In this document: piece by piece, positions 17,513 through 35,330 of the stretch | Layout: the number at the start of each line of letters is the position of its first letter | Position numbering within the stretch: position 1 is the stretch's first letter | NCBI GenBank assembly: GCA_017410325.1 | Contig: JAFQRA010000031.1 | Coordinates: 50,544 to 114,543, forward strand | From: Clostridia bacterium | GTDB taxonomy: Bacteria; Bacillota; Clostridia; Oscillospirales; Acutalibacteraceae | Direction: 5' to 3' | Length of the DNA: 64,000 nt | The notes under the pieces: generated by a model | Databases searched by the model: none | Told to the model about the DNA's origin: nothing | The model's input: the letters and a program-made list of their open reading frames with translations, nothing else | Made by a program: the position numbers and the translations under genes

Positions 17513-17559
17513 AAAAGTGAGATTTTCAGTCGAATTAAACTGATAGGGAGAGTTGCCGT

Positions 17560-18267
17560 ATGGAAGCAAGCTTCATTACATCAAAACGGCTTTTGCAGCT
17601 TCGCAAGGAAAAGGGTTATACCCAAAAAGCTATGGGCGAATTGTTAGGCGTATCACGCCAGACAGTAAGCGATTATGAAAGAGGCAAGAAAACACCTGAT
17701 ATGATGAAAATAATAATTATCTGTAATCAATTCGGTGTTACAAGTGACTATATTCTCGGACTCTCGGAAGATAAAACTTCTGTTGGTAGTCACGAGGTAA
17801 GTGACTATATCGGTTTTACAAACGAGCTGGTTGAATTCCTTCACAAACAAAAGATAGATTCTTTGGATACTAAAATTGAAAAAAGTGCTCGTGACAAGAT
17901 ATTAACCACCTTTAATTTTTATAATGAGCACTTATCGACGGATGAGGTCAGGACTGTTGTAGTGGCAATTGAAGAATATCGCAGGGAATATCCAAGGCTG
18001 CTAAATAAATATGCGGAATTAATAGTGGAGAGCAAAGCTTTTATACAATCTGATAAACATAAAAGTGCAATTAGAAGTAGCCTGATAAAAAAGCTATCAG
18101 ATGCCGAAAAAGAATTTGATCAATTGATTTGTGATTGGAACGCGATTACGATAGCATTGAATGATCTTTGCAGTTCAAAAATCAAAAAAGCCCAATCTCC
18201 ATTCACAATCAGAACGCAAATTCAAGGATATATTGACGAGGTGCGAAAAATAAAACCTGATTATTAA
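17560..18267 (+). CDS. XRE-family transcriptional regulator of the element
   Basis: Cytoplasmic 235-residue DNA-binding protein. A lambda-repressor-like helix-turn-helix spans residues about 9-65 (LRKEKGYTQKAMGELLGVSR, QTVSDYERGKKTPD). The remaining part is helical, has many Lys and Glu, and probably mediates oligomerisation. An AGGGAG site precedes the ATG. It is divergent from the replication gene, so control of replication, int and xis is the natural role (inference). There is no visible peptidase domain, so control by RecA-type self-cleavage is unlikely. Confidence 0.85.
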   Translation: MEASFITSKRLLQLRKEKGYTQKAMGELLGVSRQTVSDYERGKKTPDMMKIIIICNQFGVTSDYILGLSEDKTSVGSHEVSDYIGFTNELVEFLHKQKIDSLDTKIEKSARDKILTTFNFYNEHLSTDEVRTVVVAIEEYRREYPRLLNKYAELIVESKAFIQSDKHKSAIRSSLIKKLSDAEKEFDQLICDWNAITIALNDLCSSKIKKAQSPFTIRTQIQGYIDEVRKIKPDY

Positions 18268-18315
18268 ACCTAAAACGTCATAAAACGCGAAATTTGGTAG
18301 CGCAGACCGATTTTC

Positions 18316-18351
18316 GGCACCTGAGGGGAGAAGGGATGCCCCGCAGGTGCC
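18316..18351 (+). terminator. Intrinsic terminator of the XRE regulator
   Basis: Stem GGCACCTG / CAGGTGCC, with an inner GGGG/CCCC pairing, followed by TTTGTTCTT. It lies 48 bp after the regulator stop. Confidence 0.8.
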
Positions 18352-18421
18352 TTTGTTCTTAATCGATGTTTAAAACGCGTATTTTGATAACCACCTCCAT
18401 TTGAGCAACAATATGTTGTGT

Positions 18422-18841
18422 TTATCTCGCAATGCTGATGACAAGTCCGTCGAGTGGGGCTCCGCATAAACAGATAGACCAAAGAGTATTGTCTTCTTCA
18501 TAAGCAACAACTACACCACTGTCTTTGTTTTCCTTTGAGAGGGTGCGAACGATCATCTTCTTGTTGTACGAAGTCTTGATTTCGATCTGGGATTTCTCGT
18601 GAAGGGGCGGTTCTGTACCGTCCTTAAGTAGAAGTTGAACGGTGGGCATAAACGGTCGTACAAGCATTCCGTCACGATTCTTTGATGTCAGCAAAAACTC
18701 ATTTCCGTTATCCACAATCATCGCGATACATTCCTCGCCGTTGTTGTCGTACTGCATGAATCTGATTCCCGAGTTATCCGGGATAGGCTCTGCGTAGAAG
18801 TTCTTGGTCTTTGATTTGAATTTCATTCTGTTTGGATTCAT
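18422..18841 (-). CDS. Hypothetical protein (139 aa) of the element
   Basis: Soluble, apparently beta-rich 139-residue protein (alternating strands such as GIRFMQYDNNGEECIAMIVD) with no signal peptide and no recognised motif. A GGGG-containing ribosome site precedes the ATG at 18841. It is convergent with the XRE regulator and separated from it by the terminator. Composition resembles the other cargo genes. Function unknown. Confidence 0.6.
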   Translation of the reverse strand: MNPNRMKFKSKTKNFYAEPIPDNSGIRFMQYDNNGEECIAMIVDNGNEFLLTSKNRDGMLVRPFMPTVQLLLKDGTEPPLHEKSQIEIKTSYNKKMIVRTLSKENKDSGVVVAYEEDNTLWSICLCGAPLDGLVISIAR

Positions 18842-19650
18842 AAATATGAAACCCCTTTCAAAATTTTTTGTTGCAATTTTTCATTGCAAGGAAAGTATGT
18901 AAGAATAGTTATTATTACTGTTTTCTGAACAATAGTTTTTTACACCCTTTTTCTGCGCAAGAGTTTATGAAAGAGTTGTTTTCTGCGCAGCGGTTTTTCG
19001 CTCGTCGGAATAGTCTTGTTCAGAAGCTCATATAAACCAAAAGCATCCGGAGCGTTGTTTCTCCGAATGCTTTTTTCATTCCCTCAACCATTCTTTTACG
19101 TGAGGTTTTTATTCAGTTTTGTTTATGCACACTTGCAGAATATTCTTCAACAGACCACTCAATCCTTGGGGTGGTTTTGTCCTGTGCAAACCGGTTCCCA
19201 AATCTGATTCTGAATGCAATTCTCACATTGGCTCAACAATGGAATTTGCCTCAATTCCGTATACGGAAAGTCGGATTCAGTAACAAGTTACAGAAAGTCA
19301 TTTTTAGCCCTAAAAAATCAAGTGGAAAATTCACAGTTTCCGTATACGAAAAAAGCTTTTAGTAATAAATTACGAAAAGGCTGTTTTGTGCTCTTTAATC
19401 AGCTCCTCGAAATTATATTAATCTTTCTTTTGTCGCTGGTGTATTACTGCGTCCGAAAAATTCAATAGCACCCGCAGGTAAAAACATTCCACCTGTAAAC
19501 ATACGAAAAGGCACAAGTAATGGTAACGTGAATCAAGCTTAATCATTCAGCTCTTGCTTTTGTAATGCTTGAACTAAGCATCAACAATGCAGTTGATGAG
19601 TCAGCTTTTAAAAATTAGCCCGAAAAAGCATTAAATACCTGACCGGGTAA
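18842..19650. other. 809-bp gene-free region with repeats; candidate origin or regulatory region
   Basis: No convincing gene: the short open frames on the plus strand lack ribosome sites and overlap one another. Visible structure: TTTTCTGCGCA appears twice near 18950-18990, a terminator-like hairpin lies at 19040-19073, and degenerate units start with TTCCGTATACG (19255 and 19338). Each unit also carries a short dyad, GTAAC-AA-GTTAC (19280-19291) and GTAAT-AA-ATTAC (19362-19373). A third partial unit (TACGAAAAGGC) lies near 19502. A replication or transfer origin is possible but unproven. Confidence 0.4.
19040..19073 (+). terminator. Hairpin with T tract
   Basis: Near-perfect stem AAAGCATCCGGAG / CTCCGAATGCTTT (one mismatch), followed by a T run. 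No gene is seen just upstream on the plus strand, so it may end a non-coding transcript or be left from a lost gene. Confidence 0.6.
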
Positions 19651-21717
19651 TTAAAAAGCAAACCAAGCTAAAATATTATTAAAGAAACTGATAATTGCGT
19701 TAAAAATATTTGTGAAAAATTCTTTGATTCGTTCAACAAACGTCAATTCATGTCCATTGCATATTTCTGCATAAGCAAGGCTGCCAGCAAATAAACCGTT
19801 AATTTTATTCAACAATTCTTCATATGCCTTGTTTGCAACAGGTTCAAATTCAACGGCTGAGTTTTCGTTAACCATTTCTGCCATTTTATTGTAATCGTCC
19901 ATTGAGGCTATTCCGTAAGGTTGAGAAACAAAATAATCCGGGCTTTCTGTACAGATTTTATTGACTGAATTTGCTACGTATATAAATAACGGTATACAGC
20001 CATCTCTGCCGGGATCCGCCGACATATTGAATGAACTGGGATGGAAGGTTTTGGTCTTTTCAAAAGACTCTTTTGGAAGATGGATAGTTAGATTATGATT
20101 CTTGATAATACCGCCTTCGCCTAACCAAGAAAAGGCATAGCCGTTGAGATAATCTATATCCGGCAATTCGTAAACCATTCTGTCAGAACCGACAGGATAA
20201 GCCAGCAGCATGCTTTTATCTTTACTGAAAAGAACGCCATCTTTAACGGAAAGGTATTTGTTTGTATCAGATACAGAGTATTCTTTGGCTATCATACCCG
20301 AAGTGAAAGGCAGCACAATATCACCGAATGCCAATCTGTCAATTTCTTCCTCTGTAAACTTTCTGTTGTAGTTTTCGTCGTGGATTTTGTATTTATATTT
20401 TGCAGTCTCATAAGCATTTTCAGCATAACCGTCTGAAACAGTAAGTGCGTTTATGTGAGAAAGCATAAAAGGATACGTTTCTGGTGTTATAATGTTTTCG
20501 CTAAGCGTGTATGTATCGACATATTTTTGAATCTGACGAAGAATTATGCTGAATTCATCATAATTTAACAGAAGCATACCATTGTCCGCAGAGAGATATT
20601 TGTTTTTATCGGAAACACAGACTTGTTCTATATCGGTAAGAAGAAACCAGAAATAGACCATGTTGCCCAAATCTAAAAACTGTGAACTAAGCAAATAACG
20701 CTTTTCTGCTTTTGAGGCAGCGGAATACTCTGCAATAAAATCGTCAGTAAGATATTCTTCAATCTGGGCGACCAGATAGTTTTCTCCGAATGTGATTTTT
20801 TTCAGATTTTTGGCAGCCGGAAGAGTGGCCATATTGTAGTTGGAATACGCTTTGGTAAGGTCATTTTCTACCGTATCAGGCATTACATATATAGCCTTGT
20901 CGGAGGCTGTGGGATAAACCAAAAGCGTCTTTACTTCACTGTCATAAAGAACGCCGTCAATAAGAGAGAAGCTCTTGTTATCGGAATGAAGTTCAATGCT
21001 TTCAACAAATCCAAAAGCATCAGCTACAGCCTCCATAAAACTCGTGTCATCAAAATCGGCGCCGATTTTCAGCTTGGTAGCAGTTGTGCTGCTGTCGTTC
21101 CAAACTATATTGATTCTTGAATTTTCAGCTATAATCTCAGTTGCTGCAGGCGTTTCAGAAGGATCGAACAAGCTTCTTGCATTCGCATTAGCGGGCATTG
21201 AAAATTCTTTCAGGTCAGTGCAACCGTAAAATGCACCGTAATCAATTTGGGTTACTCCATTACCCAATGATACTTTTTCAAGCGAAGTACAATCAGAGAA
21301 GGCATAACTGCCAATGGTCAGTACGCTGTCGGGTACAGTGATTTCTTCAAGACTTTCACATCCGTCAAAAGCATCATAACCTATTTCAGTTACGCTGCTA
21401 CCTATCAATGCTTCCGTAAGGTTAATGCAGTCGCTGAATGCATTATTTCCTATATTTGTTACACCGTCTTCAACCAATATGGTTTTTATTTTATCGTTGT
21501 ACTGCTCACGCCACGGGATATCTCTGTAATAAGAAAAGTCCGTCATAGCTCCGGTGCCGGATATAGTAAGTTTACCTGTGCTTTCATCAAAACTCCACGA
21601 AACATTTTCTCCGCAGGTACCGTTTGCTGTAACTGCAAAAGATGTAAAGGGCAGGGTGCTGAATAAAAGTACTATGCAAAGCATAGCTGATAAAACTTTT
21701 AACATCTGTTTTTTCAT
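19651..21717 (-). CDS. Secreted BspA-type leucine-rich-repeat protein (688 aa)
   Basis: Exported protein with a signal peptide (about 1-28, ending SFAVTA). The N-terminal cap (CGENVSWSFDESTGKLTISG, then GAM) is typical of BspA-like proteins. It is followed by about five 23-residue repeats with the core VTxIGxxAFxxCxxL (residues about 65-190). The long remainder has scattered repeat-like segments (VSDTNKYLSVKDGVLFS). The C-terminus is a Phe/Ile/Trp-rich amphipathic tail (FFTNIFNAIISFFNN and on), with no LPXTG. In this family such repeats mediate adhesion to host or bacterial surfaces. It is the third BspA gene downstream of the leftward sigma gene and has a GGAGG ribosome site. Ligand unknown. 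Confidence 0.85.
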   Translation of the reverse strand: MKKQMLKVLSAMLCIVLLFSTLPFTSFAVTANGTCGENVSWSFDESTGKLTISGTGAMTDFSYYRDIPWREQYNDKIKTILVEDGVTNIGNNAFSDCINLTEALIGSSVTEIGYDAFDGCESLEEITVPDSVLTIGSYAFSDCTSLEKVSLGNGVTQIDYGAFYGCTDLKEFSMPANANARSLFDPSETPAATEIIAENSRINIVWNDSSTTATKLKIGADFDDTSFMEAVADAFGFVESIELHSDNKSFSLIDGVLYDSEVKTLLVYPTASDKAIYVMPDTVENDLTKAYSNYNMATLPAAKNLKKITFGENYLVAQIEEYLTDDFIAEYSAASKAEKRYLLSSQFLDLGNMVYFWFLLTDIEQVCVSDKNKYLSADNGMLLLNYDEFSIILRQIQKYVDTYTLSENIITPETYPFMLSHINALTVSDGYAENAYETAKYKYKIHDENYNRKFTEEEIDRLAFGDIVLPFTSGMIAKEYSVSDTNKYLSVKDGVLFSKDKSMLLAYPVGSDRMVYELPDIDYLNGYAFSWLGEGGIIKNHNLTIHLPKESFEKTKTFHPSSFNMSADPGRDGCIPLFIYVANSVNKICTESPDYFVSQPYGIASMDDYNKMAEMVNENSAVEFEPVANKAYEELLNKINGLFAGSLAYAEICNGHELTFVERIKEFFTNIFNAIISFFNNILAWFAF

Positions 21718-21800
21718 AGCTTATTCCTCCGGGATAATTATATTGTTAAACTACTGTTTTTCTGTTGTAGAGCTACTGTTTTATTTAAATTATCTGTAGC

Positions 21801-21885: not shown

Positions 21886-22719
21886 TCACTTGCTCGGAAA
21901 CAGGGACAGAAAAAGATTTTTTGTCGATTCAAAGGATTCTTTTATGTACTGCCAGATTATTTCCAGAAGTGAAAGTGCAGAGGTACGGGTTGTATCGGGA
22001 AGCTCGTCCGTGTTTACATCGAATTCTGCGCTTGCGTTTGAGGTGAGCTTTGTCCAGTCGCAGGATTTTTTGGTGTACAGACCCTTGTAGCTCCATACAG
22101 CAATTTCATCAGCCTTTGCTTCGGAATATGCAAAGCAGAATTTTACGTCATTCTTTACTCCCGTAACTGCATCGGCGCTGAATGTTGTAACACCGCATCC
22201 GACAACGATTCGCTCAAGCCTTGAGCAATATCCAAAGGCATAATGACCGACCTCTTTTACTGTATCAGGTATTCTGATTCCGCTGATGCGGCTGCACATA
22301 TAAAACGCATAAGCATCAATTTTGCTTACGGTGTAGCCGTCAAGCGTTTCAGGAATTACGATTTCATCATAGGCTTTTTCGCCGTAATAGTTATAGGCAA
22401 TTGTTACGGTGCCGTCCTCGTTGACCCTGTAAAGATAATTTGAATTGTCTTTTGCAACAATATAATTCTTCTTGTTCAGGTAAACCCAATTTACGCCGTT
22501 TTCGTCGGTGTAAGAGTTTCCGGGAGCATCCCATTTCTTCTCTTGTGCGGCAGTGTCTTTCTGATAAAGGTTGGTTGCCTGAATTCCACCGTCGGCAAGA
22601 ACGTTTTCTTTCTTAGGCTCGGGCTGCGTGCCAGCATCTTCAGCGAATGCGGTAATGCCTGCGGTGAACATAAGGACTGTTGCGAGGATAAGTGCTGTGA
22701 TTTTTTTACTGAGTTTCAT
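21886..22719 (-). CDS. Small secreted BspA-type leucine-rich-repeat protein (277 aa)
   Basis: Exported protein with a signal peptide (about 1-26, ending GITAFAED). Residues about 85-180 carry two to three BspA repeats (IVIPETLDGYTVSKIDAYAF, then IRIPDTVKEVGHYAFGYC). The Asp/Glu-rich N-terminal part and the middle have no recognised domain. The tail (IIWQYIKESFE, then KNLFLSLFPSK) is hydrophobic and amphipathic, like the tails of its neighbours. It starts 25 bp after the 639-aa gene, in the same direction, so the two are co-transcribed. Probable role: surface or secreted adhesin-like partner. Confidence 0.8.
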   Translation of the reverse strand: MKLSKKITALILATVLMFTAGITAFAEDAGTQPEPKKENVLADGGIQATNLYQKDTAAQEKKWDAPGNSYTDENGVNWVYLNKKNYIVAKDNSNYLYRVNEDGTVTIAYNYYGEKAYDEIVIPETLDGYTVSKIDAYAFYMCSRISGIRIPDTVKEVGHYAFGYCSRLERIVVGCGVTTFSADAVTGVKNDVKFCFAYSEAKADEIAVWSYKGLYTKKSCDWTKLTSNASAEFDVNTDELPDTTRTSALSLLEIIWQYIKESFESTKNLFLSLFPSK

Positions 22720-22744
22720 TTTTGTTACCTCCGTTTGTTGGTTT

Positions 22745-24664
22745 TTATTCTACAATAAGCTTAAATCCGAAAGCCTGTTCAATAATTCGATTTATTCCGA
22801 AAAGATTCTTGAAGAACGAAATAAGCTTTTGGAAGAAGCCTGCCTTGACTGTTACATTCTGGCTGTCGGAGATTTCTTCACCCTTTGCATTGACAAGTAC
22901 ATTATCTTCGCCGTCAACAAGCTTAACTGTAATTTCAGCATTGCCGCTTTCCTTGCGGAACTCATATGTTTCGCCTTCGCCCTTAAGTACACCGTCAACA
23001 TACCAGCAGATTTTTACATCTTCGGGAAGATTATCTGTTTTTTCTGCAAGTGCTGTCAACTTAAGAGTTTCGCCGTAGTTGATAGTTCTGTTTCTGCTGT
23101 TGTTTTTGATTTTTACTGTAGCATCAATTTTCTCAAATGTGCTTACCTCAAATTCGCTGAAGGAAGAAACTTCAAATTCAAGATAATTGCCTTTTACTGT
23201 GAGCTTGAGTTCGTTGCCCTTGGGTGATGTTGAAAAGTTTTCTCTGCCACCGTTTGCAAGACGGTGAACAATTCTGAAGTTCTTCTTGCCTACATATTCA
23301 GCAGGAATGGCCATCTTTACAGTTACCTTGTAACCGTCTTTGGGCTGAGCAGTTGTTCCGTCAGCGGATACCATTTTAATTTCAAAGCAGCCTACCTGAG
23401 TTTTGATTTCGCCATCTGAAAGATAAACTGCACCGGGTGTGCGCTCGCCGTCTGTTTCTTCAACCTTAAGATTGACTTCTTCATCAAAGCACTTGTTTGT
23501 ATATGTAACTTCAACGCCGAATTCAGCATTGTCTTTGCTTACCGGATAAACACCGTAGTGAACAGTAACATCATCGGAAGTGAGAATATCGTTACCCGTT
23601 GCTATTGTCACCTTGTCCCAGTCAGCCTGAGAACCGGCATTGTAATAAACATCGGAAAGTGAAGTGCAGTTTGTAAATGCGTTTTTGTTGATAGTGGTTA
23701 CCTTGCCTTCAAATGTAACAGTCTGGAGATGCGTTGCATTGTAACAGACATTTGCAGAAATTGCTGTTACATTCTCGCCGAAGACAATTTCTGTGAAGTT
23801 TACGTTGTTAGCAAAAGGTGCATATGAGGCATTGGTCATAGTACAAGAGTTGGAGTTGAAATAAACCTTTTTAAGGTTGTCACACTGTTGGAATGCATAC
23901 CATCCGATAGATTTCACCTTTGCAGGTATGGTGATCTCTGTAATCTTGCAGCCGATGAATGCATTATCACCGATTGTTTCAAGGTCTTCTGAAAAGTCAA
24001 ATGAAGGAACGGATGAGCAATTTTCAAAAGCTCTGTTACCGATTGATTTAACCTTTGAAAGATCAACCGACTTGAGTGATGAGCAGTTTGCAAATGCACC
24101 GTTACCGATTGAAGTTACCTCGCCTTCAAAAATAACTGTCTGAAGGTTTGTTGCATTGTAACAGACATTTGCAGAAATTGCTGTTACATTCTCGCCGAAG
24201 ACAATTTCAGTGAAGTTTACATTATTAGCAAAAGGTGCATATGAGGCATTGGTCATAGTACAAGAGTTGGAGTTGAAATAAACCTTTTTAAGGTTGTCGC
24301 ATTTCTGGAATGCATACCATCCGATTTCAGATATATTGTCATTAATCTTGACTGCTGTAAGAGTCAAGCAACCCTTAAATGCATTATCTTCAATTGCTGT
24401 TATCGCTGTGCCGTTGATATGTGTGGGGATTTCAATGTTACCGGAAAGTTTGTCTGTGTAGCCCTTGATTGTGTTGCCTTCAATAACAAGCATATCTTCC
24501 GTTGCTACGGTCCAGACAATTTCTTCGTCTGCTGCACTGGCGAAGAATGAGCCAAAAGACGGAAGAGAAAATCCGCTCAGTGCTGAAATAGGCGCTGAGC
24601 CAAGTGCGAGTGCCGCCACAAGAGCGATGGACATCATTCGTTTGAATTTGGTTTGCTTTGACAT
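22745..24664 (-). CDS. Secreted BspA-type leucine-rich-repeat protein (639 aa) with internal duplication
   Basis: Exported protein with a signal peptide (about 1-45). BspA-type repeats fill residues about 60-370. A block of about 64 residues beginning near IGWYAFQKCDNLKKVYF is repeated almost exactly 139 residues later. Residues about 380-520 form a beta-rich module that also has a counterpart in the 1111-aa BspA protein. Next is an Ig-like segment (about 520-600). The tail is Phe-rich and amphipathic (GFFQKLISFFKNLFG and on). A GGAG site precedes the ATG. It is the first BspA gene behind the leftward sigma gene and the small 37-aa gene. Confidence 0.86.
   Translation of the reverse strand: MSKQTKFKRMMSIALVAALALGSAPISALSGFSLPSFGSFFASAADEEIVWTVATEDMLVIEGNTIKGYTDKLSGNIEIPTHINGTAITAIEDNAFKGCLTLTAVKINDNISEIGWYAFQKCDNLKKVYFNSNSCTMTNASYAPFANNVNFTEIVFGENVTAISANVCYNATNLQTVIFEGEVTSIGNGAFANCSSLKSVDLSKVKSIGNRAFENCSSVPSFDFSEDLETIGDNAFIGCKITEITIPAKVKSIGWYAFQQCDNLKKVYFNSNSCTMTNASYAPFANNVNFTEIVFGENVTAISANVCYNATHLQTVTFEGKVTTINKNAFTNCTSLSDVYYNAGSQADWDKVTIATGNDILTSDDVTVHYGVYPVSKDNAEFGVEVTYTNKCFDEEVNLKVEETDGERTPGAVYLSDGEIKTQVGCFEIKMVSADGTTAQPKDGYKVTVKMAIPAEYVGKKNFRIVHRLANGGRENFSTSPKGNELKLTVKGNYLEFEVSSFSEFEVSTFEKIDATVKIKNNSRNRTINYGETLKLTALAEKTDNLPEDVKICWYVDGVLKGEGETYEFRKESGNAEITVKLVDGEDNVLVNAKGEEISDSQNVTVKAGFFQKLISFFKNLFGINRIIEQAFGFKLIVE
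23718..23910. repeat. Internal duplication, copy 1
   Basis: About 190 bp nearly identical to 24135-24327, offset by 417 bp (139 codons, in frame). The low divergence, including at silent sites, points to a recent duplication within the leucine-rich-repeat gene. Confidence 0.85.
24135..24327. repeat. Internal duplication, copy 2
   Basis: Partner of 23718-23910. Differences between the copies are few and concentrated at the edges. Confidence 0.85.
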
Positions 24665-24737
24665 AGAAGTTTTCTCCTTTGTTTTTATTGTTTTCGGATT
24701 TAGGTCTCCGTTTTACAACTTGTAAATATTTTCAGTA

Positions 24738-24851
24738 TCAGCGATCGTATGCAAATTTGCGTGCCGCATCCTGACACGTGAAGTACCTTTTGTGTGTACC
24801 ATAATCTGCGCACCAGCGCTGAATTTTTGCGTCGAAATAAATGCTTACCAT
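24738..24851 (-). CDS. Small ORF (37 aa) between sigma factor and BspA gene
   Basis: A 37-codon frame starting MVSIYFDAKIQRW and ending RKFAYDR. It has a good GGAGA ribosome site 9 bases before the ATG at 24851, and an ECF-type promoter candidate 52 bp upstream. The product is basic and aromatic with two cysteines and no membrane segment. It lies between the leftward sigma gene and the first BspA gene in the same direction. No family is recognised. It could be a regulator of the sigma factor, or a leader peptide. Confidence 0.5.
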   Translation of the reverse strand: MVSIYFDAKIQRWCADYGTHKRYFTCQDAARKFAYDR

Positions 24852-24902
24852 AATGAAACTCTCCTTTGTTTTTTGTCGTCTTTTTTGTCGTTCTGTCTGT
24901 AA

Positions 24903-24928
24903 GACGACGGAGTGTTTCAATCGGTTCA
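24903..24928 (-). promoter_or_regulatory. Candidate ECF-sigma promoter before the small ORF/BspA genes
   Basis: On the minus strand TGAACC, exactly 16 bp, then CGTC followed by TTA. The element upstream of the sigma gene (26584-26609) has the same spacing and the same CGTCTTA. It lies after the sigma stop and before the small ORF, so it would give the BspA genes their own ECF-dependent transcription. Confidence 0.55.
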
Positions 24929-24955
24929 AAGTTTTTTAAAAATTTTTTGATTTTT

Positions 24956-26548
24956 TTAAATCTCAGCTTCAAAGGTGTAACTGCTTCCCGATACAGCTGT
25001 TTTTTCAAGGTCATTTCCAAACACACCGTATACCGAATAGCCCTTTGATTCTGTTAAAGTCCATATATAGCTTTCGGTCATTGCTGTACCGGCTTCTACA
25101 GAAAACGTGAGAGTTTCAGCGACGGAATTATCTGTATTAATAATTTTTATATTTATCGTCGCTGTACCGACTGTAGTTGCTTGTGTCGTAGTCGGGGCTT
25201 GAGTAGTGGTTGGTTTTTCTGTTGTAGTAGGTTTAGCGGTTGTCGGCTTTGTGGTGGTAGCTATTATGGTTGTTGTGCCTGAGCCGCTCAGACTGCTGTT
25301 TGCTGTCTGTTTCTTGGTTGTGCTTGGTGCAGCGGTTGTTTTCTTTTCTGTAGTTGTGGTTTGAGATGTTGTTTGTTTATCCGTTGTTGTCTGTGCGGTG
25401 TTTTTATTCTGGGTAGTTGTTTTAACTGTGTCAGGTGGTCCGGTAGGTTGCAACGCATCGGGTTTTGTTGCGTTGTCCTTTTTGTTCAGGGTTACGGTTA
25501 TATGCGTTGTACCGTTTTCATTTGAAACAGCTATGATTGAGTTTTCGTATTCAATTGTTGCTTCAGAGCTTTCTTCGGTTGCGATTACCGCTATGTTTTC
25601 ACTTGAAAATTCGGTTGATTGCTCGGTTACAGCAGTAGTTGTTTCTTCTGCACGCTTGTCGTGTACAACCTTTGCCGCTGTTGCACCTCCGCCGATTACA
25701 ACGGCGCCTGCGGCAACAATTGCCACTACCTTTGCCGTAAAGCCTGTTGCGACTGTACCGCCTGTTGCTACTGCAGTAGAAACAGTTGTTGCGGAAACTG
25801 CCGTACCGATGGTGGTTGTGCCTGCAGCTGTCGCCGCTGCCGCAGAGCTTACTGCAGCAGCTTTGACACCTGCAAGTACGCTCGTATAAGCAGGGCTCGC
25901 AGCAAACGATGCCTGAGCAGTTTGGGCAGAGCTTCTGAGTGCCCAAATTATAATGCCAATCGGCGCTGCACTGTATAGCGAGGTCACGCCCGCACGTTCA
26001 AAGCACCGCTTGAGCTCGTTACGCCCGTGGTACAGCCTTGTTTTGACCGTTCCTTCGGGAATTTCGAGACATTTGGCAATTTCGCCAATGCTGTTTTCCT
26101 CGTAATACATCATAATGATGCATGACTTTTTATCTTCGCTAAGCTCATCGAGCGCCTGCATAACGGTTATTCTGAGGTCTTCCTTGTCAACGTTTTCTTC
26201 GGGTGAGAAATTTGTATTCTCGTCCGCTATAACCTCATACGCTTCGTCCTCGTCACATTCAAAAAGCGAGGGCTTTTTCTTCTTTATATAATCCTTGCTT
26301 TTGTTGGCAACTATTCTGTTGAACCAACTCACAAAGGTTTCGGGATTTTCCAGTTCATTGATTTTTGAAAGTGCCTTTATGTAGCTGTCCTGTAGTATAT
26401 CCTCCGCATCGTCATCGTTCTTGACAAATTCCTTTGCAAGAAAGAAGGCTCTCTTGCTTGTAAGGTGATAAAGCTCCTCGAAAGCGGAGTCGTCACCAGT
26501 TTGTATTTGAACAACTAACTTGGTTATTCTTTTGAAATCAATTTCCAT
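24956..26548 (-). CDS. ECF sigma factor fused to membrane segment, Thr-rich stalk and C-terminal beta domain (A)
   Basis: The start at 26548 (MEIDFKRITK) follows a GGTGGTGA site; the frame extends upstream without one. Of 530 residues, 22-90 form sigma region 2 (EELYHLTSKRAFFLAKEF, DAEDILQDSYIKA) and about 125-183 region 4 (LSEDKKSCIIMMYYEE, PEGTVKTRLYHGRNELK). A hydrophobic stretch lies at 191-204, then an Ala/Thr-rich linker. A membrane segment (about 272-292, VVAIVAAGAVVIGGG) is followed by a Thr/Pro-rich stalk (about 370-460, TTTxKPTT units) and a beta-rich domain (461-530). No separate anti-sigma gene is seen. Stalk and domain are probably outside the cell, but the basic KVVHDKR after the membrane segment leaves topology open. 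A paralogue is encoded divergently. Confidence 0.85.
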   Translation of the reverse strand: MEIDFKRITKLVVQIQTGDDSAFEELYHLTSKRAFFLAKEFVKNDDDAEDILQDSYIKALSKINELENPETFVSWFNRIVANKSKDYIKKKKPSLFECDEDEAYEVIADENTNFSPEENVDKEDLRITVMQALDELSEDKKSCIIMMYYEENSIGEIAKCLEIPEGTVKTRLYHGRNELKRCFERAGVTSLYSAAPIGIIIWALRSSAQTAQASFAASPAYTSVLAGVKAAAVSSAAAATAAGTTTIGTAVSATTVSTAVATGGTVATGFTAKVVAIVAAGAVVIGGGATAAKVVHDKRAEETTTAVTEQSTEFSSENIAVIATEESSEATIEYENSIIAVSNENGTTHITVTLNKKDNATKPDALQPTGPPDTVKTTTQNKNTAQTTTDKQTTSQTTTTEKKTTAAPSTTKKQTANSSLSGSGTTTIIATTTKPTTAKPTTTEKPTTTQAPTTTQATTVGTATINIKIINTDNSVAETLTFSVEAGTAMTESYIWTLTESKGYSVYGVFGNDLEKTAVSGSSYTFEAEI

Positions 26549-26583
26549 ATTTTCACCACCGTTTTGTCCTCTCATAGGCTTAA

Positions 26584-26609
26584 GACGAGCGAAAAACGGA
26601 AAGGTTTCA
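26584..26609 (-). promoter_or_regulatory. ECF-sigma-type promoter of sigma gene A
   Basis: On the minus strand TGAAAC, exactly 16 bp, then CGTC, ending 36 bp before the start codon. This is the consensus form known for SigM/SigW/SigX-type ECF factors of Bacillota, and such promoters typically mark autoregulation. It implies that sigma A (or its paralogue) drives its own gene. Confidence 0.72.
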
Positions 26610-26749
26610 TAAATTTGCAAAAAAATTAAAAAAATTCTGAAAATCTTTTTTGCCCGTCTGCTGATCATAGACGAATGAAAAATCAAAAGGTTACACGAAA
26701 ACGAAATAATTTATAGAAAATTAATAAATCGCCAATTCGCTCTTTTATA

Positions 26750-26777
26750 TTGAAATAAGAATATATTTTGATATAAT
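26750..26777 (+). promoter_or_regulatory. SigA-type promoter of sigma gene B
   Basis: TTGAAA, 16-bp spacer, TATAAT, ending 39 bp before the ATG at 26817. The divergent sigma gene on the other strand carries an ECF-type promoter instead, so the two genes appear to be under different control. Confidence 0.7.
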
Positions 26778-26816
26778 TAATACATTAATTATTCTACAGA
26801 AGGGGACGGTCTGCGG

Positions 26817-28346
26817 ATGAATGAGGGCGTTATTGCCTCGCTTGCCGAAAAAGCAAAGCAAGGCGATATGCAGGCGTTTGAACAGCTTTATACCGAGTTT
26901 TCACCGCTCGTGTATTCAATACTGTTTGAAATTACGCACGACACATACGAAGCGGAAAACTTAACGCAGGACTGTTTTGTTTCTGCTTTGCAAAGCATAC
27001 ACACACTAAAAGAGCCTGAAAAAGCAAAAAAGTGGCTGACAGCAATTGCCGCCAACCACGGTAGAGATTATCTGAAAAAGAAAAAACCAGCTTTGCTCGG
27101 CGCAGAGCACGAATACATATTTGAAATAAAGGAAGAGGACGATTCCTCACTTTTACCCGAAGCGAGCACAGAGCTTGACGAGCGAAGCGAGGAAATAAGA
27201 GAAATTGTCAACTCTGTATCGGAGGACAAGCGGCTTTGTCTCTTGCTTTTCTATCAGCACGAAATGAGCATAGCCGAAATTTCCGAAGAACTCGGTATTT
27301 CCGAAAGCGCTGTCAAAACGCGACTTTACAGAGCAAGAGAAGACATAAAAGAAGAGGTAGAAAAGCGCAACAAAAAGGGGATGCCGTTGTTCGGTGTTGC
27401 ACCCTTGCCGCTCATACTCTTTGCCCTGCGCAAATCATCCGAAGCTGCAACTGCTTCGTTTGCAGGAAGTGCTGCACAGACAACAGCTTTTGCGGCTGTT
27501 ACTGCAACGGCAAACACAGCGGCTGTTACTGCGGCGGCTTCAACCGCAACTGCTGCAACAGCCACGGGCACGGCAACCGCAACCGCTTCGGCTGCAACAG
27601 CAACAGCGGCAACGGCGGCGACAGGCACGGCAGCAACCGCAGCAGCAACGGGCATATCCGTAAAGGTTATCGCAATAGCGGCGGCAGGTGCAGTCGCAGT
27701 AGGCGGAGGTGCGGTAGGCGCAAAAGTGGTTCACGACAAGCGAGCCGCAGAAACAACCACTGCAATATTCGAAAAATCAACCGAACTTGCAAGCGAAAAC
27801 ATAGCCGTTGCCGCTACCGAGCCTGAAAGTGAAACTCAAATAACGTTAGAAAACGCAACTATAACGGTTTCGACATTAAACGGGACAACAACCGTAATCT
27901 TAACAACCGATACAAACACAAAGACAACAGTGGCAAACGGTACCACACAAGCGGTCACAACAAGCCGGGTATCAACAACATCCGCAGCTACAACAAAGCC
28001 TACGACAACAGCTAAACCAATAACCACCGACAAACCTACCACTACGGCAAAGCCGACTACGACCGCCGATACAACAGCAGCAACTACAACGATGCCCATA
28101 ACCACAACACAGCCGACAACTGCTACTCCGACTACCACAGCAGCCAAACCGGCAATGGTTACCGTAACCGTATGGGATTCAACGGGAAGCACAACCCACA
28201 CACTTTCTTTTGAGCCCGGTGAAACAATTACGGCTGACGTAATTGAAAACAGACTATCGGACGAATATGGAATCGAAGCCATAGTTGATGCTATAAATAT
28301 AACTGCTGAGTCAGGTGGAAGCTACACCGCCACAGCATACGAATAA
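26817..28346 (+). CDS. ECF sigma factor fused to membrane segment, Thr-rich stalk and C-terminal beta domain (B)
   Basis: Paralogue of the leftward sigma gene, 509 residues. Region 2 spans about 20-90 (FEQLYTEFSPLVYSILFE, AENLTQDCFVSAL) and region 4 about 130-180 (SEDKRLCLLLFYQHEMS, SESAVKTRLYRAREDIK). A hydrophobic stretch lies at 191-204 (LFGVAPLPLILFAL), then about 70 residues of almost pure Ala/Thr. The membrane segment (282-303) is followed by the shared block KVVHDKRAxETTTA, a Thr/Pro stalk (about 370-445) and a beta domain (446-509) ending SGGSYTATAYE. The stretch around the membrane is the most similar between the two. A GGGG site precedes the ATG. Only 15 bp separate it from the 1111-aa BspA gene, so they form one operon. 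Signal and regulon unknown. Confidence 0.85.
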   Translation: MNEGVIASLAEKAKQGDMQAFEQLYTEFSPLVYSILFEITHDTYEAENLTQDCFVSALQSIHTLKEPEKAKKWLTAIAANHGRDYLKKKKPALLGAEHEYIFEIKEEDDSSLLPEASTELDERSEEIREIVNSVSEDKRLCLLLFYQHEMSIAEISEELGISESAVKTRLYRAREDIKEEVEKRNKKGMPLFGVAPLPLILFALRKSSEAATASFAGSAAQTTAFAAVTATANTAAVTAAASTATAATATGTATATASAATATAATAATGTAATAAATGISVKVIAIAAAGAVAVGGGAVGAKVVHDKRAAETTTAIFEKSTELASENIAVAATEPESETQITLENATITVSTLNGTTTVILTTDTNTKTTVANGTTQAVTTSRVSTTSAATTKPTTTAKPITTDKPTTTAKPTTTADTTAATTTMPITTTQPTTATPTTTAAKPAMVTVTVWDSTGSTTHTLSFEPGETITADVIENRLSDEYGIEAIVDAINITAESGGSYTATAYE

Positions 28347-28361
28347 ACGGAGGAATTATAT

Positions 28362-31300
28362 ATGAGAATAAAAGGCATCAAAACGTTTTCTGTAATACTT
28401 GCAGTAATTATGCTTTTCGGTAACTTTACAGCCCTTGCGGCAGAAAATGAAATAACCGCCAGTGGAGCAACAGGAAATATAAATTGGACATTTTACAGTG
28501 ATGGCGAATTAGTCATTTCCGGTTCAGGCGCTATGCCGAACTATTCTACCGACGGATTCCCATGGTATACTTACCGCTCACAAATTATATCGGCAACAAT
28601 AACTGACGGTGTGACGAGTATTGGCGGCAATGCCTTTAGCGGATACAGCAATCTAAAACAAGTAACCTTACCGAATAGTGTAAAAACCATCTATGGTTCT
28701 GCTTTTTATAAATGTATTGCTCTTGAAGAAATCTCTGTTCCTGACAGTGTAAAAACTATTGGTGAAAGAGCATTTATGGGTTGCACTTCGCTCAAAAACA
28801 TAACAATAGGCAGTGGCATAACCGATATTGGCTGGTCTGCATTTGAAAATTGTACAAAGTTAACAAATGTTTATTATACCGGCGATCTTGCAGATTGGTG
28901 TGCCATTGATTTCAGCGAAAGCTATGGATCCAACACTTGCAATCCAATGTATTATGCTTCGTATTTATATATACAAGGTACTCGCCCTTCAGGTAACATC
29001 GTTATTCCCGAAACCGTAACAACCATTCCGTACGGCACATTTAAAAACTGCAAAGAATTTATCAATATAACTATCCCAAATTCTGTAACAACAATAAAAC
29101 CCTATGCGTTTTACAACTGCACAGGACTCAAAAGTGTAGTTGTTTCCGACAGTATAACCCGCTTGGACAGCTACATTTTTTGTGGTTGCACGGGACTCTC
29201 AAATGTAGTTATCGGCAATAGTGTCGGTAGTATTACAACTAATGCATTTTCCGGATGCAGCGGTATCACAGAACTAACAATGCCGGCATCTTCCTATTTT
29301 GACGGTTCGGCGTTTAAAGGATGCATCAATATTGATAAAGTAACACTAACCAAGGGTTCCGGCAAAATGTACGACTATTCAGATGCTTCTCATCGATCTG
29401 CACCGTGGTACATCGGTAAAAGCAGTACGGTAATAATAGATGACGGTGTTACGGATATAAGCGAATATGCGTTTTATAATTGTAACAATCTAAAAAACCT
29501 GACCGTTGGTAACAGTGTAAAAACGGTCGATAGATACGCCTTTTATAATTGTGACAGCCTCACAAATGTTTACTATACAGGAAACATTGCCGGATGGTGC
29601 GAGATCAGCTTTAGTACAAATCCATTAGATTTTGCAGAGAACTTATATATAGACGATAAGCTTGTCGAAGGCGTTCTTGTAATCCCTGAAGGTGTGACAA
29701 GCATTGGCAGTGGGGCATTTAAAAATCGCACACTTATCACAGGCGTTGAAATTCCTGACAGCATAACAAGTATCGGTGCCTCAGCTTTCTATGGTTGCAC
29801 CTCACTTGAAAGCATAACACCGCTAAAAAATACTGAATATATTGGCACAAACGCATTCTTCAACACAGAATATTACAACGATCCCGCAAATTGGGACAAC
29901 GGATTTTTGTACATCGGCACTAATCTCGTTGCAGTCAACAACGATAAGGTTGCGGACGAATGCAAACTGTATTCCAAAACAACACTTGTAGCATCAAGAG
30001 TTTTTGAAAAAAGCATCATTACAAGTCTTAATATGCCTGACAGTGTAAAATACATAAACACTTATGCTTTCTCTGACTGTGACCGTCTTGAGTCGGTTAA
30101 TTTATCGAGTAATCTTGTAGCCATCGGCGTAGGTGCATTCTATGACTGCGATAAATTAACAAGCATAGAAATTCCGGACGGTATTTCTGAACTGCCTAAT
30201 TCATTATTCAACGGTTCCGATATACTGAGTAATGTTGTCCTTAGTGACAGTCTTATGTCAATAGGAGAAAAGGTATTCTATAATGCACCTGAATTGACCC
30301 AACTCGAAATCCCCGCCACAGTTACCTCAATAGACCCGACTGCTTTCAGTGGCAGCGGCATCACCGATATTTATTACGGTGATAACAAGGCTCAATGGAA
30401 GCGTGCAACGGGCGGTGAGAGCTTCGACGGCATAACTGTTCACTACACGCTTAAGAGTGATGATGAAAGCGTTATCATTCAGCACACGGATAAAAACTTC
30501 ACTTGGGAAGCAGGCAATGTTCACCTCAAGGTTGAAGATTTAACAAATGTCACAACCTCTTACGAGCAAAACGGATTTTACAACCGTCTGCTTACTAACC
30601 CGATACAGGTGCTTGACATAAAGCTTGTTGACGGCGATGACAAACCTATACAGCCGCTTTCTGATGAAAAGATAACAGTAAAAATCAAGGCTTCCGATGA
30701 ATTTAAGGCTATGCTTAAAACAGCTTTGTCTTCAGTCAGCGAATATGATATTGCAGCAGATAAGATTGATTTTGTCAATGACAGCTTTGTATTTGAGGTC
30801 GACGGCGAAACTGTAACTGTCCCTGCGGCAGAAAAGTTCCTCAAATCCTTCAAGGTTATTCACTGGAAATCCGATGCAGTGTTACCGACTGACCACGAAA
30901 GCTTTACCCACGATATGCTCAGTGTAAAAAACGGCTACATTGTTTTGCAGACTAATCACTTCAGCGAATATGCCGTGTGTACGGATATGCTTGAAATTGA
31001 GCAGGCCGAGCTTGAAATTGAAAACGGCAAAACGGCTCAGCTTAACGTTACTGTAGGCGAGGGTGAGACTGTAACTTACACTTCGTCGGATGAAAATGTT
31101 GCAACGGTCAATACAAACGGTGTTGTTACCGCAGTCGGTCCGGGTACAGCAACAATTACAGCTACAGTTAACGGTACGGGTGTCAGCGCAAAGTGTACTG
31201 TAAACGTTCCGTTCAGAACATTTACTGTCAAGTGGGTTGTTGACGGTGTTGTAACAGAGCAGGAAATAACAGAGCAGTCACCCTTAACTGCACCTGCCGA

Positions 31301-33087: not shown

Positions 33088-33276
33088 GGAATTGTTATCA
33101 TAAATAAACCCGACGAAATCACAATTTTAAATCTGGGCGGTTTCAGAATAGAGCTTGAAGCTGCCAAATCCGGCGGAATATCCGACCCGAGAAATACTGT
33201 ACTTATGAAAATGTTTACCCTTATAGATATCGGTGAACGTGCCGGAAGTGGTATTCCGAATATCTATAGTAAAATG
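33088..33276 (+). pseudogene. Fragment of an AlbA/HATPase_c_4-type putative transcriptional regulator
   Basis: One frame reads IVIINKPDEITILNLGGF, then GGISDPRNTVLMKMF, then IGERAGSGIPNIYSKM. This is the C-terminal ATPase-like part of the RecG/AlbA_2-type regulator family, in which the SDPRN and ER-GSGI motifs are conserved. The N-terminal several hundred codons and any start are missing and the frame runs on without family similarity, so it is a relic. The surrounding 32855-33403 otherwise holds only the promoter region of the leftward esterase and the upstream region of the next gene. Confidence 0.7.
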
Positions 33277-33403
33277 ATTGTGATACACTTTGAAAAAGAT
33301 TTATTATGTTACAAAAAATGCGCAGTTTATACGTAGTCTGTACGTATTTATTCAGTATTCTGTTCTTTGTCGGAAGACAAAACAACACGAAAGGACAGAT
33401 AAG

Positions 33404-33928
33404 ATGGTAAATGAAACTATCAACAAGTTAAACGAAGAATACGAGATTGACAAAGAAAACATTCAAAGGGCTATGTTCAAATTTATCGCCCCTGCTCCGG
33501 TGCCGTATGCTGTGTTGGAAATGACACGCAGACAAACGAAATTTTCTTCAATCGGAGAGTTTCTGCCTATGCAGATGATCGATAAATATTTGTATGAAGA
33601 TGAGGCAGATGAAATTGAAATCGGAGAAAACGAATTTGTTATCCGTGACTACAGCTTAAAGGATTACGGAATAAAACCCGGAGATGTTTGCCTCTACAAT
33701 CCTGAAAGGACAGACGAAACCGTATACTTCTCTGCTGTCGAAATTGACGGCTGTATATTCCCGGCGGATCTGAATGAAGACGAAGAGGATCCCGAAAAAT
33801 ACTGTGTATATACAAACGGTGCCTACTGGGATTTCACAGTTTACAAGGACAAGGTTAAGGTGCTCGGTGAGATTTGTGCTTGGAGAAAAGCTGATGAAAC
33901 CGAATACAGACCATTTATAGAAGAGTAA
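33404..33928 (+). CDS. Hypothetical protein (174 aa)
   Basis: The start at 33404 (MVNETINKLN) is chosen because AAAGGA lies 8 bases upstream; the frame extends upstream without a ribosome site. The product is soluble, strongly acidic in its middle (YEDEADEIEIGE) and looks beta-rich in the C-terminal half, where YGIKPGDVCLYNP recalls small beta-barrel domains. No family is recognised with confidence. It begins a run of four small rightward genes (33404-34688) with gaps of 24 bp or less. Confidence 0.55.
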   Translation: MVNETINKLNEEYEIDKENIQRAMFKFIAPAPVPYAVLEMTRRQTKFSSIGEFLPMQMIDKYLYEDEADEIEIGENEFVIRDYSLKDYGIKPGDVCLYNPERTDETVYFSAVEIDGCIFPADLNEDEEDPEKYCVYTNGAYWDFTVYKDKVKVLGEICAWRKADETEYRPFIEE

Positions 33929-33932
33929 GCAT

Positions 33933-34205
33933 ATGAGTTTTATTGAAGAGTTTTATTTTGGCAATCATGAGCCTCAAAAAAGCAACCTGAAACAAAATGC
34001 GGATTTTCAACGGGACTTCAACAGAATGTGTGAGATTGAAGCGATGCTCAGAAACAGCCTTGCCGGTAAGCAGAAGGAGCTGTTCAAGGAATATGTTGAT
34101 TTGTGGGGTTTAATACTCGGCGATATGACTTTTGATAGTTTTAAGACCGGCTTCAGACACGGTGCAGCATTTGCCGCCGATACATTTAACACAGAGGATA
34201 ATTAA
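33933..34205 (+). CDS. Small helical protein (DUF6809-like)
   Basis: A 90-residue, apparently all-helical protein. It starts MSFIEEFYFGNHEPQ, matching the opening pattern (LYxGNIxPxE) of a small Clostridia family usually listed as DUF6809. GFRHGAAFA near the end is also typical. A short GAAGAGT sequence precedes the ATG, 4 bp after the previous stop, so translation is probably coupled. These proteins are common on mobile elements and have no known function. Confidence 0.6.
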   Translation: MSFIEEFYFGNHEPQKSNLKQNADFQRDFNRMCEIEAMLRNSLAGKQKELFKEYVDLWGLILGDMTFDSFKTGFRHGAAFAADTFNTEDN

Positions 34206-34228
34206 TCATATCAAGAGGATGAGAGCTT

Positions 34229-34534
34229 ATGTCCAACCAAGATATACCGGATATCGTTAAACTGATTCATGATTTCAACTGCACAGACCCCGACGAAATG
34301 TATTTTTCTGTACTCGCTGACAGGGTCAGATATTTCAAAGAGACACCGGAAGGACAAGCGGAGATTTTTAAAATGTTTGATGATGCACGAAAAGAGGCTG
34401 CCGACGCAAGAGCGATAAAGATTGCAAGGAGTTTACTGAATACTACCTTTTCTGTTGAACAAATAGCAGAAATTTGCGCTCTTTCGGTTGAAGAAGTTCA
34501 GAAAATCAAGGGTGGGGAACAATCAAATGAGTAA
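34229..34534 (+). CDS. Small protein resembling the C-terminus of Rpn/transposase-like nucleases
   Basis: A 101-residue protein. The second half (ARAIKIARSLLNTTFSVEQI, then AEICALSVEEVQKIK) matches the helical tail found at the end of Rpn-family PD-(D/E)XK recombination-promoting nucleases, but no nuclease domain is present. It could be a stand-alone tail produced by gene decay, or a small regulator that has kept its ribosome site (GAGGATGAGAG). It overlaps the next gene by 8 bp. Confidence 0.5.
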   Translation: MSNQDIPDIVKLIHDFNCTDPDEMYFSVLADRVRYFKETPEGQAEIFKMFDDARKEAADARAIKIARSLLNTTFSVEQIAEICALSVEEVQKIKGGEQSNE

Positions 34535-34688
34535 AATAATGGACGAAATTCGTGAAGAGGCATCTGATTTAAAAGCCAAAGAAATCGCTGCGAGATTGCT
34601 TGAGACAAATCTATCTGTTGAAGAAGTATCAGGGCACACAGGTGTTTCTGTAGAAGAAATCATAAAAATCAAAGAAGGAAATCAATAA
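34527..34688 (+). CDS. Small protein (53 aa), paralogous tail of the preceding gene
   Basis: The start at 34527 (MSKIMDEIREE) is preceded by GGGTGGGG. The 53-residue product repeats the pattern of the preceding gene's second half: KEIAARLLETNLSVEEVSGH, then TGVSVEEIIKIKEG. The two thus look like a tandem duplication of one helical, helix-turn-helix-like module. Function unknown. Confidence 0.5.
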   Translation: MSKIMDEIREEASDLKAKEIAARLLETNLSVEEVSGHTGVSVEEIIKIKEGNQ

Positions 34689-34954
34689 AGCAAAAACGGC
34701 TCGCTTCGGCGAGCTGTAGCTTTAGAGTTTTGATATAGATGCTGTTTGCAAAAGACACGCTGTATCAAGGTTTAGTAAAGATTCCGAATATAATTATCAA
34801 ATAACCGAAATAGCAGGTTTTAAAAAGCAACCTAATTATTATACACCGCTTTGCTGTGATAACACGACGGCTTAGCGGTGTGTTTCTTTGATTGGTTTGA
34901 AATTTTCTGAATAAAAGATATTGAATCGGCATAGATTAATAATGTTTGTAAATA
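34689..34954. other. Gene-free region upstream of hipBA
   Basis: The end of the small-gene operon is followed by a short hairpin near 34697-34720 (GGCTCGC-TTC-GGCGAGC), a probable weak terminator. The rest is A+T-rich and shows no gene up to the hipB promoter. Confidence 0.5.
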
Positions 34955-35009: not shown

Positions 35010-35330
35010 ATGGGAAAGAAAGCTGTAACAGTATTACCGAGTACAGAAAAAATATTAGCAACTATGGGTGAGCAGATACGTTTAGCCCGACTTCGCAGGC
35101 AGCTTTCCGCAGAGCTTGTTGCCGAGAGAGCAGGAATCAGCCGTGCGACGCTTTGGAATGTTGAAAAAGGTAGCCCTTCGGTTGCTATAGGAATCTATGC
35201 TGCTGTTTTGCACGCACTTAATAATATGGATAAAGATTTACTGCTCGTTGCCAAGGATGACGAATTCGGCAAAAAGATGCAGGACTTAAATATGCAGGTT
35301 AAAAAGAGAGCACCGAAGGGAGATAAATAA
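35010..35330 (+). CDS. hipB: HipB-like XRE antitoxin
   Basis: DNA-binding antitoxin of 106 residues. The start at 35010 (MGKKAVTVL) is chosen for its spacing from AAGAGG; in-frame starts at 35001 (GTG) and 35004 (ATG) are too close. A lambda-repressor-like helix-turn-helix occupies residues about 20-75 (RLARLRRQLSAELVAERAGI, RATLWNVEKG). The C-terminal tail is basic (KKRAPKG). The stop overlaps the toxin start by one base, the coupling expected of a hipBA operon. It should bind HipA and repress the operon through the palindrome at 34975-34990. Confidence 0.85.
   Translation: MGKKAVTVLPSTEKILATMGEQIRLARLRRQLSAELVAERAGISRATLWNVEKGSPSVAIGIYAAVLHALNNMDKDLLLVAKDDEFGKKMQDLNMQVKKRAPKGDK

Follow-up and report, generated by a model that had tools for sequence, protein, structure and literature searches.

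Among extracytoplasmic function (ECF) sigma factors, the groups ECF48, ECF52 and ECF53, the protein IutY and some members of ECF36 are described as fused membrane proteins (PMC8999054). IutY of Pseudomonas putida (ECF243) is reported as a sigma/anti-sigma fusion of cell-surface signalling that answers a siderophore, has a periplasmic anti-sigma domain and is released by Prc and RseP (PMC5411451, PMC8999054). ECF52 (SCO4117), ECF48 and ECF53 of Actinobacteria are described as consisting of a sigma part, a transmembrane segment (TM), a Pro-rich stretch and a terminal domain, the TM being preceded by a zinc-finger anti-sigma domain; the same account has SCO4117 regulating its own gene and describes ECF52 as exclusive to Actinobacteria (PMC5826349). 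Here we analyze a 64,000-nt stretch of DNA of a Clostridia bacterium (the window), in which two divergent genes, P0001 (24956..26548, minus strand) and P0002 (26817..28346, plus strand), encode ECF sigma factors joined to a predicted TM and a long tail. Each of the two proteins is, in our judgement, likely to be a one-polypeptide transmembrane sigma switch, in which an outward sensor would govern the release of sigma and the activation of a surface-protein operon.

The proteins resemble IutY in having an ECF sigma factor, a TM and a predicted extracytoplasmic part in one polypeptide, with no separate anti-sigma factor. Unlike IutY, they belong to a family found here in Clostridia, with diverse ectodomains and surface-protein partners. 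IutY-type fusions contain a FecR-type anti-sigma domain and are partnered by a TonB-dependent receptor. The families listed for 51 members of the clostridial family (defined below), 25 out of 30, include no FecR-type domain, no anti-sigma family and no RsgI family. The order sigma, TM, Pro-rich stretch and terminal domain is shared with ECF52, ECF48 and ECF53, but in the clostridial proteins the interval from sigma4 to the TM lacks the HxxxCxxC zinc anti-sigma (ZAS) motif (0 of 51). A further likeness is that to SigV-RsiV of Bacillus subtilis, since two of the fused proteins (L053 and L034) carry the DUF3298 ectodomain, which sits in the extracellular region of RsiV (PMC4183432); the steps by signal peptidase and RasP reported for RsiV offer a possible mechanism (PMC7593790, PMC4183432). 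RsiV, however, is a separate anti-sigma protein, whereas in the clostridial family the sigma factor itself is predicted to be anchored. In SigI-RsgI of cellulolytic clostridia an extracytoplasmic sensory module and a TM likewise control a sigma factor (PMC6056542), but this system consists of two genes, and SigI is without sigma4. Fused membrane ECF factors are thus already known, and, because IutY and ECF52 are precedents, the family is not categorically new; it is a variant distinguished by its lineage, the lack of the zinc motif, its diverse ectodomains and its surface-protein partners. Among the titles and abstracts listed in literature searches there was no description of it; a numbered group in the main ECF re-classification of 2021 may exist.

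Both reading frames are open. P0001 (530 amino acids) most likely starts at the ATG at 26548 rather than at the TTG at 26686 given by the open reading frame prediction. It comprises an ECF sigma factor, a post-sigma4 block, an Ala/Ser/Thr linker, one TM, a juxtamembrane block, a Thr/Pro-rich stalk and an end domain, and P0002 (509 amino acids) has the same architecture. Sigma regions 2 and 4 are complete in both, as had been predicted: Sigma70_r2 and Sigma70_r4_2 pass the Pfam cut-offs in residues 1-183 of P0001 (26000..26548, minus strand) and 1-181 of P0002 (26817..27359, plus strand). Only sigma2 and sigma4 are present, they are of the ECF type (group IV), and TIGR02937 scores above its cut-off. 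The solved protein nearest in sequence to the sigma part of P0001 is SigW (5wuq, E 1.9e-21). A fold search, covering mostly residues 1-189, likewise supports intact sigma domains of ECF type. Sigma70_r2 is matched 21 times in the 2.67 Mb genome, but frames longer than 500 amino acids hold only two of these matches, those of P0001 and P0002.

The hydrophobic segment that the original prediction placed near residues 272-303 is located at residues 274-292 of P0001 (25673..25729, minus strand; Kyte-Doolittle hydropathy 2.12) and 284-302 of P0002 (27666..27722, plus strand; 2.01). The Thr/Pro-rich stalk is likewise present in both proteins, at about residues 347-452 of P0001 (25193..25510, minus strand) and 363-441 of P0002 (27903..28139, plus strand), these limits being set by us. 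The end domain occupies residues 453-530 of P0001 (24959..25192, minus strand) and 442-509 of P0002 (28140..28343, plus strand); the expected small beta-rich fold agrees with the AlphaFold2 model of P0002, in which residues 441-509 form a strands-helix-strands unit with a predicted local distance difference test score (pLDDT) of 77-92. For the P0002 end domain neither Pfam nor the PDB sequences gave a credible match (WD40-type matches span 16 residues only), that of P0001 has no other copy in its own genome besides P0001 itself (E 0.01), and no carbohydrate-binding domain of Pfam was matched in either protein. The conserved KVVHDKRA block at the membrane is borne out as well, as the paralogues are 74% identical in the TM and 65% in the juxtamembrane part, against 33% in the sigma part.

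No anti-sigma gene accompanies the pair, which agrees with the original prediction: the gene next to each of P0001 and P0002 encodes a BspA-type protein with leucine-rich repeats (LRR) that is not anti-sigma-like. This holds for the family in general. We compared 46 fused genes at 42 loci (from the window, the related locus L039 and 40 regions) with 19 unfused ECF genes from 20 regions of these or related genomes (one region, L181, yielded none at the threshold). A protein was called anti-sigma-like if it has one or two TMs of which the first lies within residues 25-250. The next gene encodes such a protein in 2 of the 46 fused and in 16 of the 19 unfused cases (Fisher p = 2e-10); other rules for choosing the next gene give 2 or 5 of 46 versus 15 of 19. 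In the unfused controls the anti-sigma-like partner adjoins the sigma gene or overlaps it by up to 35 bases, and 6 of the 16 such partners contain HxxxCxxC.

Instead of anti-sigma factors, surface proteins adjoin the fused genes. The next gene has a signal-peptide-like start in 18 of 28 fused cases versus 0 of 16 unfused ones. Among ten such partners scanned, seven were matched, to SLH (three), papain-like, OmpA-like, Glug/Big_3 and Listeria-Bacteroides repeat domains, and three had no match. Each sigma gene of the window heads surface-protein genes, as had been stated: a gene for a BspA-type LRR protein with Big_2 and Big_3 domains lies 15 bp downstream of P0002 (28362..31697, plus strand), and one for a BspA-type LRR protein with a signal-peptide-like start lies 291 bp downstream of P0001 (22745..24664, minus strand; the distance is 20 bp in the L039 orthologue), followed by two further BspA-type LRR genes (21886..22719 and 19651..21717, both minus strand). 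The claimed linkage to BspA genes recurs, a BspA gene being found within 5 kb of 12 of the 46 fused genes (four of these in the window and L039) and of 1 of the 19 controls, though taken alone it does not reach significance (see below). Moreover, in 8 of the 46 the BspA repeats are inside the fused protein itself.

The fused architecture is widespread in this lineage. A search with P0002 of 150 genomes of the taxonomic family gave matches at E 1e-15 in 26 genomes, many of them ECF factors in long frames and others ordinary. A profile (A1) was then made from the alignment of 18 long relatives, from sigma through the TM; the alignment has five invariant columns, including a Lys immediately before the TM (18 of 18). 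Against 394 genomes of the order, A1 gave at least 42 matches (E 7.1e-52 or better) spread over 30 genomes; one has a stop, and the count includes genomes with rows in A1 (the window's own genome, G134, G148 and G121). The match next below (E 2.3e-49) covers positions 5-191 in a 197-amino acid frame, that is, an ordinary ECF factor. In 398 genomes of the phylum there are two further long-frame matches near that level (G763 and G755), among 291 genomes of the class 10 pass 1e-52, the window's own genome included, and at the genus level 9 of 11 genomes are matched at 1e-40. Since at most 5-10 candidates were scored per genome, these frequencies are lower bounds.

The set of 51 members consists of the best matches of P0002 or of the model built from 18 fused proteins, excluding own-genome duplicates and locus repeats; L094 and L029 (no TM) and L070 (broken frame) were dropped, so that the presence of a TM is partly by construction and the set leans towards TM proteins. 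Regions 2 and 4 are kept in 50 and 51 of the 51 members, respectively. In a tree of sigma domains (49 fused and 53 unfused rows, 102 in total, of which 94 are different) there are 3 changes between the fused and unfused states versus 34 in shuffles, with 0 of 500 shuffles so low; the fused sigma factors thus form close to one clade, although the tree is of a quick kind with many weak branches, and eight unfused rows (five different), mostly long-branched, fall on the fused side of its midpoint. Hence a sigma factor joined to a TM and a tail of outward type, with no separate anti-sigma gene, recurs as a family when set against unfused controls. Further proteins with sigma, TM and a Thr-rich tail, for which the original prediction proposed a search, do exist as regards the fusion, while the exact Thr-rich tail is confined to near relatives.

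As for the topology, the TM has a hydropathy of at least 1.6 in 49 of the 51 members, and Lys or Arg stands directly ahead of it in 47. The linker before it is rich in Ala, Ser, Thr and Gly (median 58 amino acids; these residues make up 61% versus 21% in the sigma domain). If sigma is cytoplasmic and there is a single TM, the tail would be outside. The outward orientation is also favoured because tails of other members are domains of extracellular type (CAP, DUF3298, BspA LRR, Big_2); Pfam matches among the 51 tails are LRR_5 (9), Big_2 (2), WG (2), DUF3298 (2) and CAP (1), most tails being unmatched. The original prediction named a Thr-rich tail that is always cytoplasmic or not conserved as a refutation; conservation of the exact tail is indeed limited to near relatives, but the extracellular type of the other tails speaks for an outward position. 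The second hydrophobic stretch noted earlier at about residues 191-204, after sigma4, is present in both paralogues (1.58 in P0001, 1.34 in P0002) and conserved among many relatives; were it a second membrane segment, the C-terminus would be inside and the tail cytoplasmic. We find this very improbable, since the block is weaker than the TM, short and often contains Pro, reaches a hydropathy of 1.6 in only 4 of 51 members, and is followed by a long hydrophilic linker in L025, L034 and L028, while the tails are of secreted type.

For the transmembrane switch we propose the following sequence of events. The sigma part would be kept in the cytoplasm on the flexible Ala/Ser/Thr linker, anchored by a single Ala/Gly-rich membrane helix, while the wall-spanning stalk would hold the sensor tip outside. 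A signal at the tip would lead to release of sigma from the otherwise presumably silent protein, most likely through a first cut at the outer end of the TM and a second one by an intramembrane, RasP-like protease, and the freed sigma would direct transcription of the surface-protein operon and, in the case of P0001, also of its own gene via two tandem ECF promoters. M50 proteases are encoded in the genome, and likewise in all 14 control genomes. The sigma-TM chassis would be retained in evolution and the tips exchanged, at this locus jointly with the partner surface protein.

With the same topology, activation might also proceed without cleavage, the tethered sigma factor working as it is and the outer part altering clustering or the exposure of the linker. 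ToxR- and CadC-type proteins are membrane-tethered regulators and provide a model for such a mode. The long flexible linker could let sigma reach RNA polymerase, and there is no zinc anti-sigma motif that would need removal. Still, the composition of the TM suits proteolysis: its Ala/Gly/Ser content is 0.47 versus 0.37 in separate anti-sigma factors (p 0.002), and a GG pair lies in the outer half of the TM in 33 of the 51 fused proteins versus 0 of 16 separate anti-sigma factors. As, moreover, proteolysis is the presumed or demonstrated mode of release in the known fused ECF types (PMC8999054, PMC5411451), we regard activation of a tethered sigma as unlikely. Inhibition in cis by the post-sigma4 block was considered and set aside, the structural model being too poor there to support it.

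Outer parts can, by sequence comparison, differ completely on similar chassis, being BspA repeats, CAP, DUF3298, Big_2, WG or of no known kind. Among 16 fused pairs compared, 4 are without any similarity in the outer part. L010 and L036, from one genome, are 73% identical over sigma and TM, with LRR in one outer part and CAP in the other; L045 and L047 (65% identical inside) have LRR and WG; L053 and L056 (61%) are dissimilar outside, L053 having DUF3298 and L056 not being scanned alone; and L048 and L050 (60%) are also dissimilar outside, their outer domains not being scanned alone. P0001 is, by such comparisons, a mosaic: its sigma part is 45% identical to that of L017 and 33% to that of P0002, its TM and juxtamembrane parts are 74 and 65% identical to those of P0002 and 32 and 21% to those of L017, and its end domain is 41% identical to that of L017 and 32% to that of P0002.

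Exchange at the locus itself can be followed in a relative, L039 (contig of G914, 'Clostridia bacterium' RGIG6257, a metagenome-assembled genome from sheep rectum), where both sigma genes are present in synteny. Nucleotide identity per 90 nt is 0.86-1.00 over sigma and TM, except for one window in the P0001 linker (0.64), falls along the stalk and reaches 0.4-0.6 in the end domains. The sigma parts are 95% identical in amino acids and, with a fraction of 0.71-0.95 of unchanged residues keeping the same codon, have changed mostly silently, whereas the P0001 end domain is 32% identical. This bears on the suggestion that the two belong to the surface or wall and that their sigma domain is a non-working relic, to which we give hardly any credence: nothing speaks for it directly apart from one broken relative (in G266, by one TGA), while, in addition to the silent changes in sigma, ECF promoters are predicted beside the gene and both sigma regions are retained in nearly all members.

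On the P0002 side the low-identity tract extends over residues 1-880 of the BspA protein and then ends sharply, amino acid identity being 90-94% from residue 881. The replaced tract as a whole (28166..30930) reaches from the end domain of P0002 into the BspA gene; its flanks are 87 and 95% identical to G914, and only short matches of 65-72% lie inside. In the two C-terminal windows of the sigma proteins the same-codon fractions, all from small counts, drop to 0.65 and 0.47 (P0002) and to 0.50 and 0.27 (P0001); they are 0.00-0.55 over BspA residues 1-880 and 0.77-0.83 beyond. The falling codon fractions and the sharp edge thus point to replacement by recombination rather than to point selection, and the data are best explained by a replacement that spans the sensor tip together with the LRR region of the neighbour. 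On the P0001 side, a different BspA gene directly follows the sigma gene in L039.

Variation of tip and partner might also reflect diversification of exposed parts only, with no functional pairing of sensor and surface protein. Both are exposed, divergence is even in three congeners (G148, G913 and G916), and the upstream edge of the replaced tract is gradual and lies within the repetitive stalk; the fall in same-codon fractions and the sharp edge at BspA residue 880 speak against it, though not directly for a pairing. We hold such simple diversification to be quite possible, if somewhat short of even. That these proteins are modular clostridial single-protein sigma switches without a recognizable anti-sigma domain, whose outer module is often itself a surface protein of the kind controlled, or is swapped jointly with one, is offered as a tentative and rather doubtful extension; were it true, the bacterium would sense its own coat, or a ligand bound to it, and tune the coat operon accordingly.

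Two tandem ECF-type promoters are predicted ahead of P0001, both conserved in L039. The proximal one (26584..26609, minus strand; TGAAACCTTTCCGTTTTTCGCTCGTC) has the form TGAAACC-N15-CGTC with a T-tract and ends 35 nt before the ATG; the distal one (26670..26695, minus strand; TGTAACCTTTTGATTTTTCATTCGTC) has the form TGTAACC-N15-CGTC with a T-tract. A T-tract after AAC is a reported feature of ECF promoters (PMC6056542), and P0001 thus has its own-gene AAC/CGTC-type promoter, as in a canonical autoregulated ECF system. The strict pattern TGWAACCTTT-N12-CGTCT, written after the P0001 sites had been seen, has two exact matches in the whole genome, both before P0001, and one with a mismatch, while the reversed control gives 0. 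Ahead of P0002 there is a sigmaA-like candidate (26750..26777, plus strand; TTGAAA-16-TATAAT with TG), conserved in L039, though the scan of the region for such promoters gave 4 matches, not above shuffles (5.2).

In the family, the classical GWAAC...CGT pattern is found upstream of 4 of 50 fused genes (P0001, its L039 orthologue and two others) versus 1.8 in shuffles, and AACC-N13..16-YGTC upstream of 9 of 50 (shuffles 0.66, maximum 3) and of 0 of 19 unfused ECF genes. The latter pattern was chosen from upstream alignments, and six of its nine matches (P0001, its L039 orthologue, L010, L037, L047 and L057) had been seen by eye beforehand. It also occurs before 5 of 21 same-strand genes directly upstream of a fused sigma gene versus 18 of 733 others (p 2.5e-4), a near-independent test, as these cases had been noticed in an earlier listing.

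A number of results weigh against the proposed switch and have kept our confidence in it limited. The tail is probably directed outward, but this was judged from hydropathy and tail type alone. No inhibitory domain is recognized in the fused proteins, the zinc motif included, and the AlphaFold2 model, in which the linker and the post-sigma4 block have low pLDDT (mostly <40), gives no help on inhibition. Linkage to BspA genes taken alone is not significant (p = 0.09). P0002 has no AAC/CGTC-type ECF promoter upstream, having the sigmaA-like one instead; the looser promoter pattern is at the genome background (9 versus 12); the AACC/YGTC motif was not found before 41 of 50 fused sigma genes, and once the six matches seen beforehand are set aside, its excess is not significant in another near-independent test (3 of 44 fused genes versus 16 of 544 others, p = 0.16). 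Of the 16 pairs, 12 still have related outer parts, a single genome pair accounts for the joint replacement of tip and partner, and no such break is seen in the three congeners.

If the transmembrane switch is real, sensing outside the cell would be coupled to transcription by one protein, providing a scaffold for the study of one-protein signalling and a way to learn how gut Clostridia regulate surface proteins of the BspA and SLH kinds. The silencing of an ECF factor without a recognizable anti-sigma domain would then become a directly testable question, and the natural differences between ectodomains would show that the chassis tolerates their exchange.

The location on a mobile element, claimed originally, is not supported, as matches from 2278 to 58673 of the window are collinear in G914, including the Tn916-type integrase (14013-15191, minus strand), which is 97.7% identical and in the same place. 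In this otherwise syntenic contig, segments 15700-21772, 22736-24738 and 33272-34834 of the window have no DNA match (E 1e-20), the variable segments forming a patchwork around BspA genes. A HipA-like gene lies near the variable locus (35330-36580, plus strand). Between P0001 and the neighbouring BspA gene (about 24738-24952, minus strand) a good ribosome-binding site precedes a small open frame of about 37 codons; this stretch is 83% identical in G914, where it stands behind an extra BspA gene.

Several other architectures were observed among the relatives. L014 and L038 have a Cys-rich stretch N-terminal to sigma2 (residues 1-25), and two of the 51 members match Zn_Ribbon_1. L029 (739-2079) encodes a 446-amino acid ECF protein with a long C-terminal part and no membrane segment. 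Sigma-only ECF matches lie inside frames of 877-879 amino acids at G286:C10:44723, G248:C2:202066 and G307:C25:39790, possibly representing another long ECF architecture. In five fused sigma factors of four congeneric genomes (L215-L219), the Thr-rich stalk leads to BspA repeats, as detected with a home-made repeat model, and not to a small end domain.

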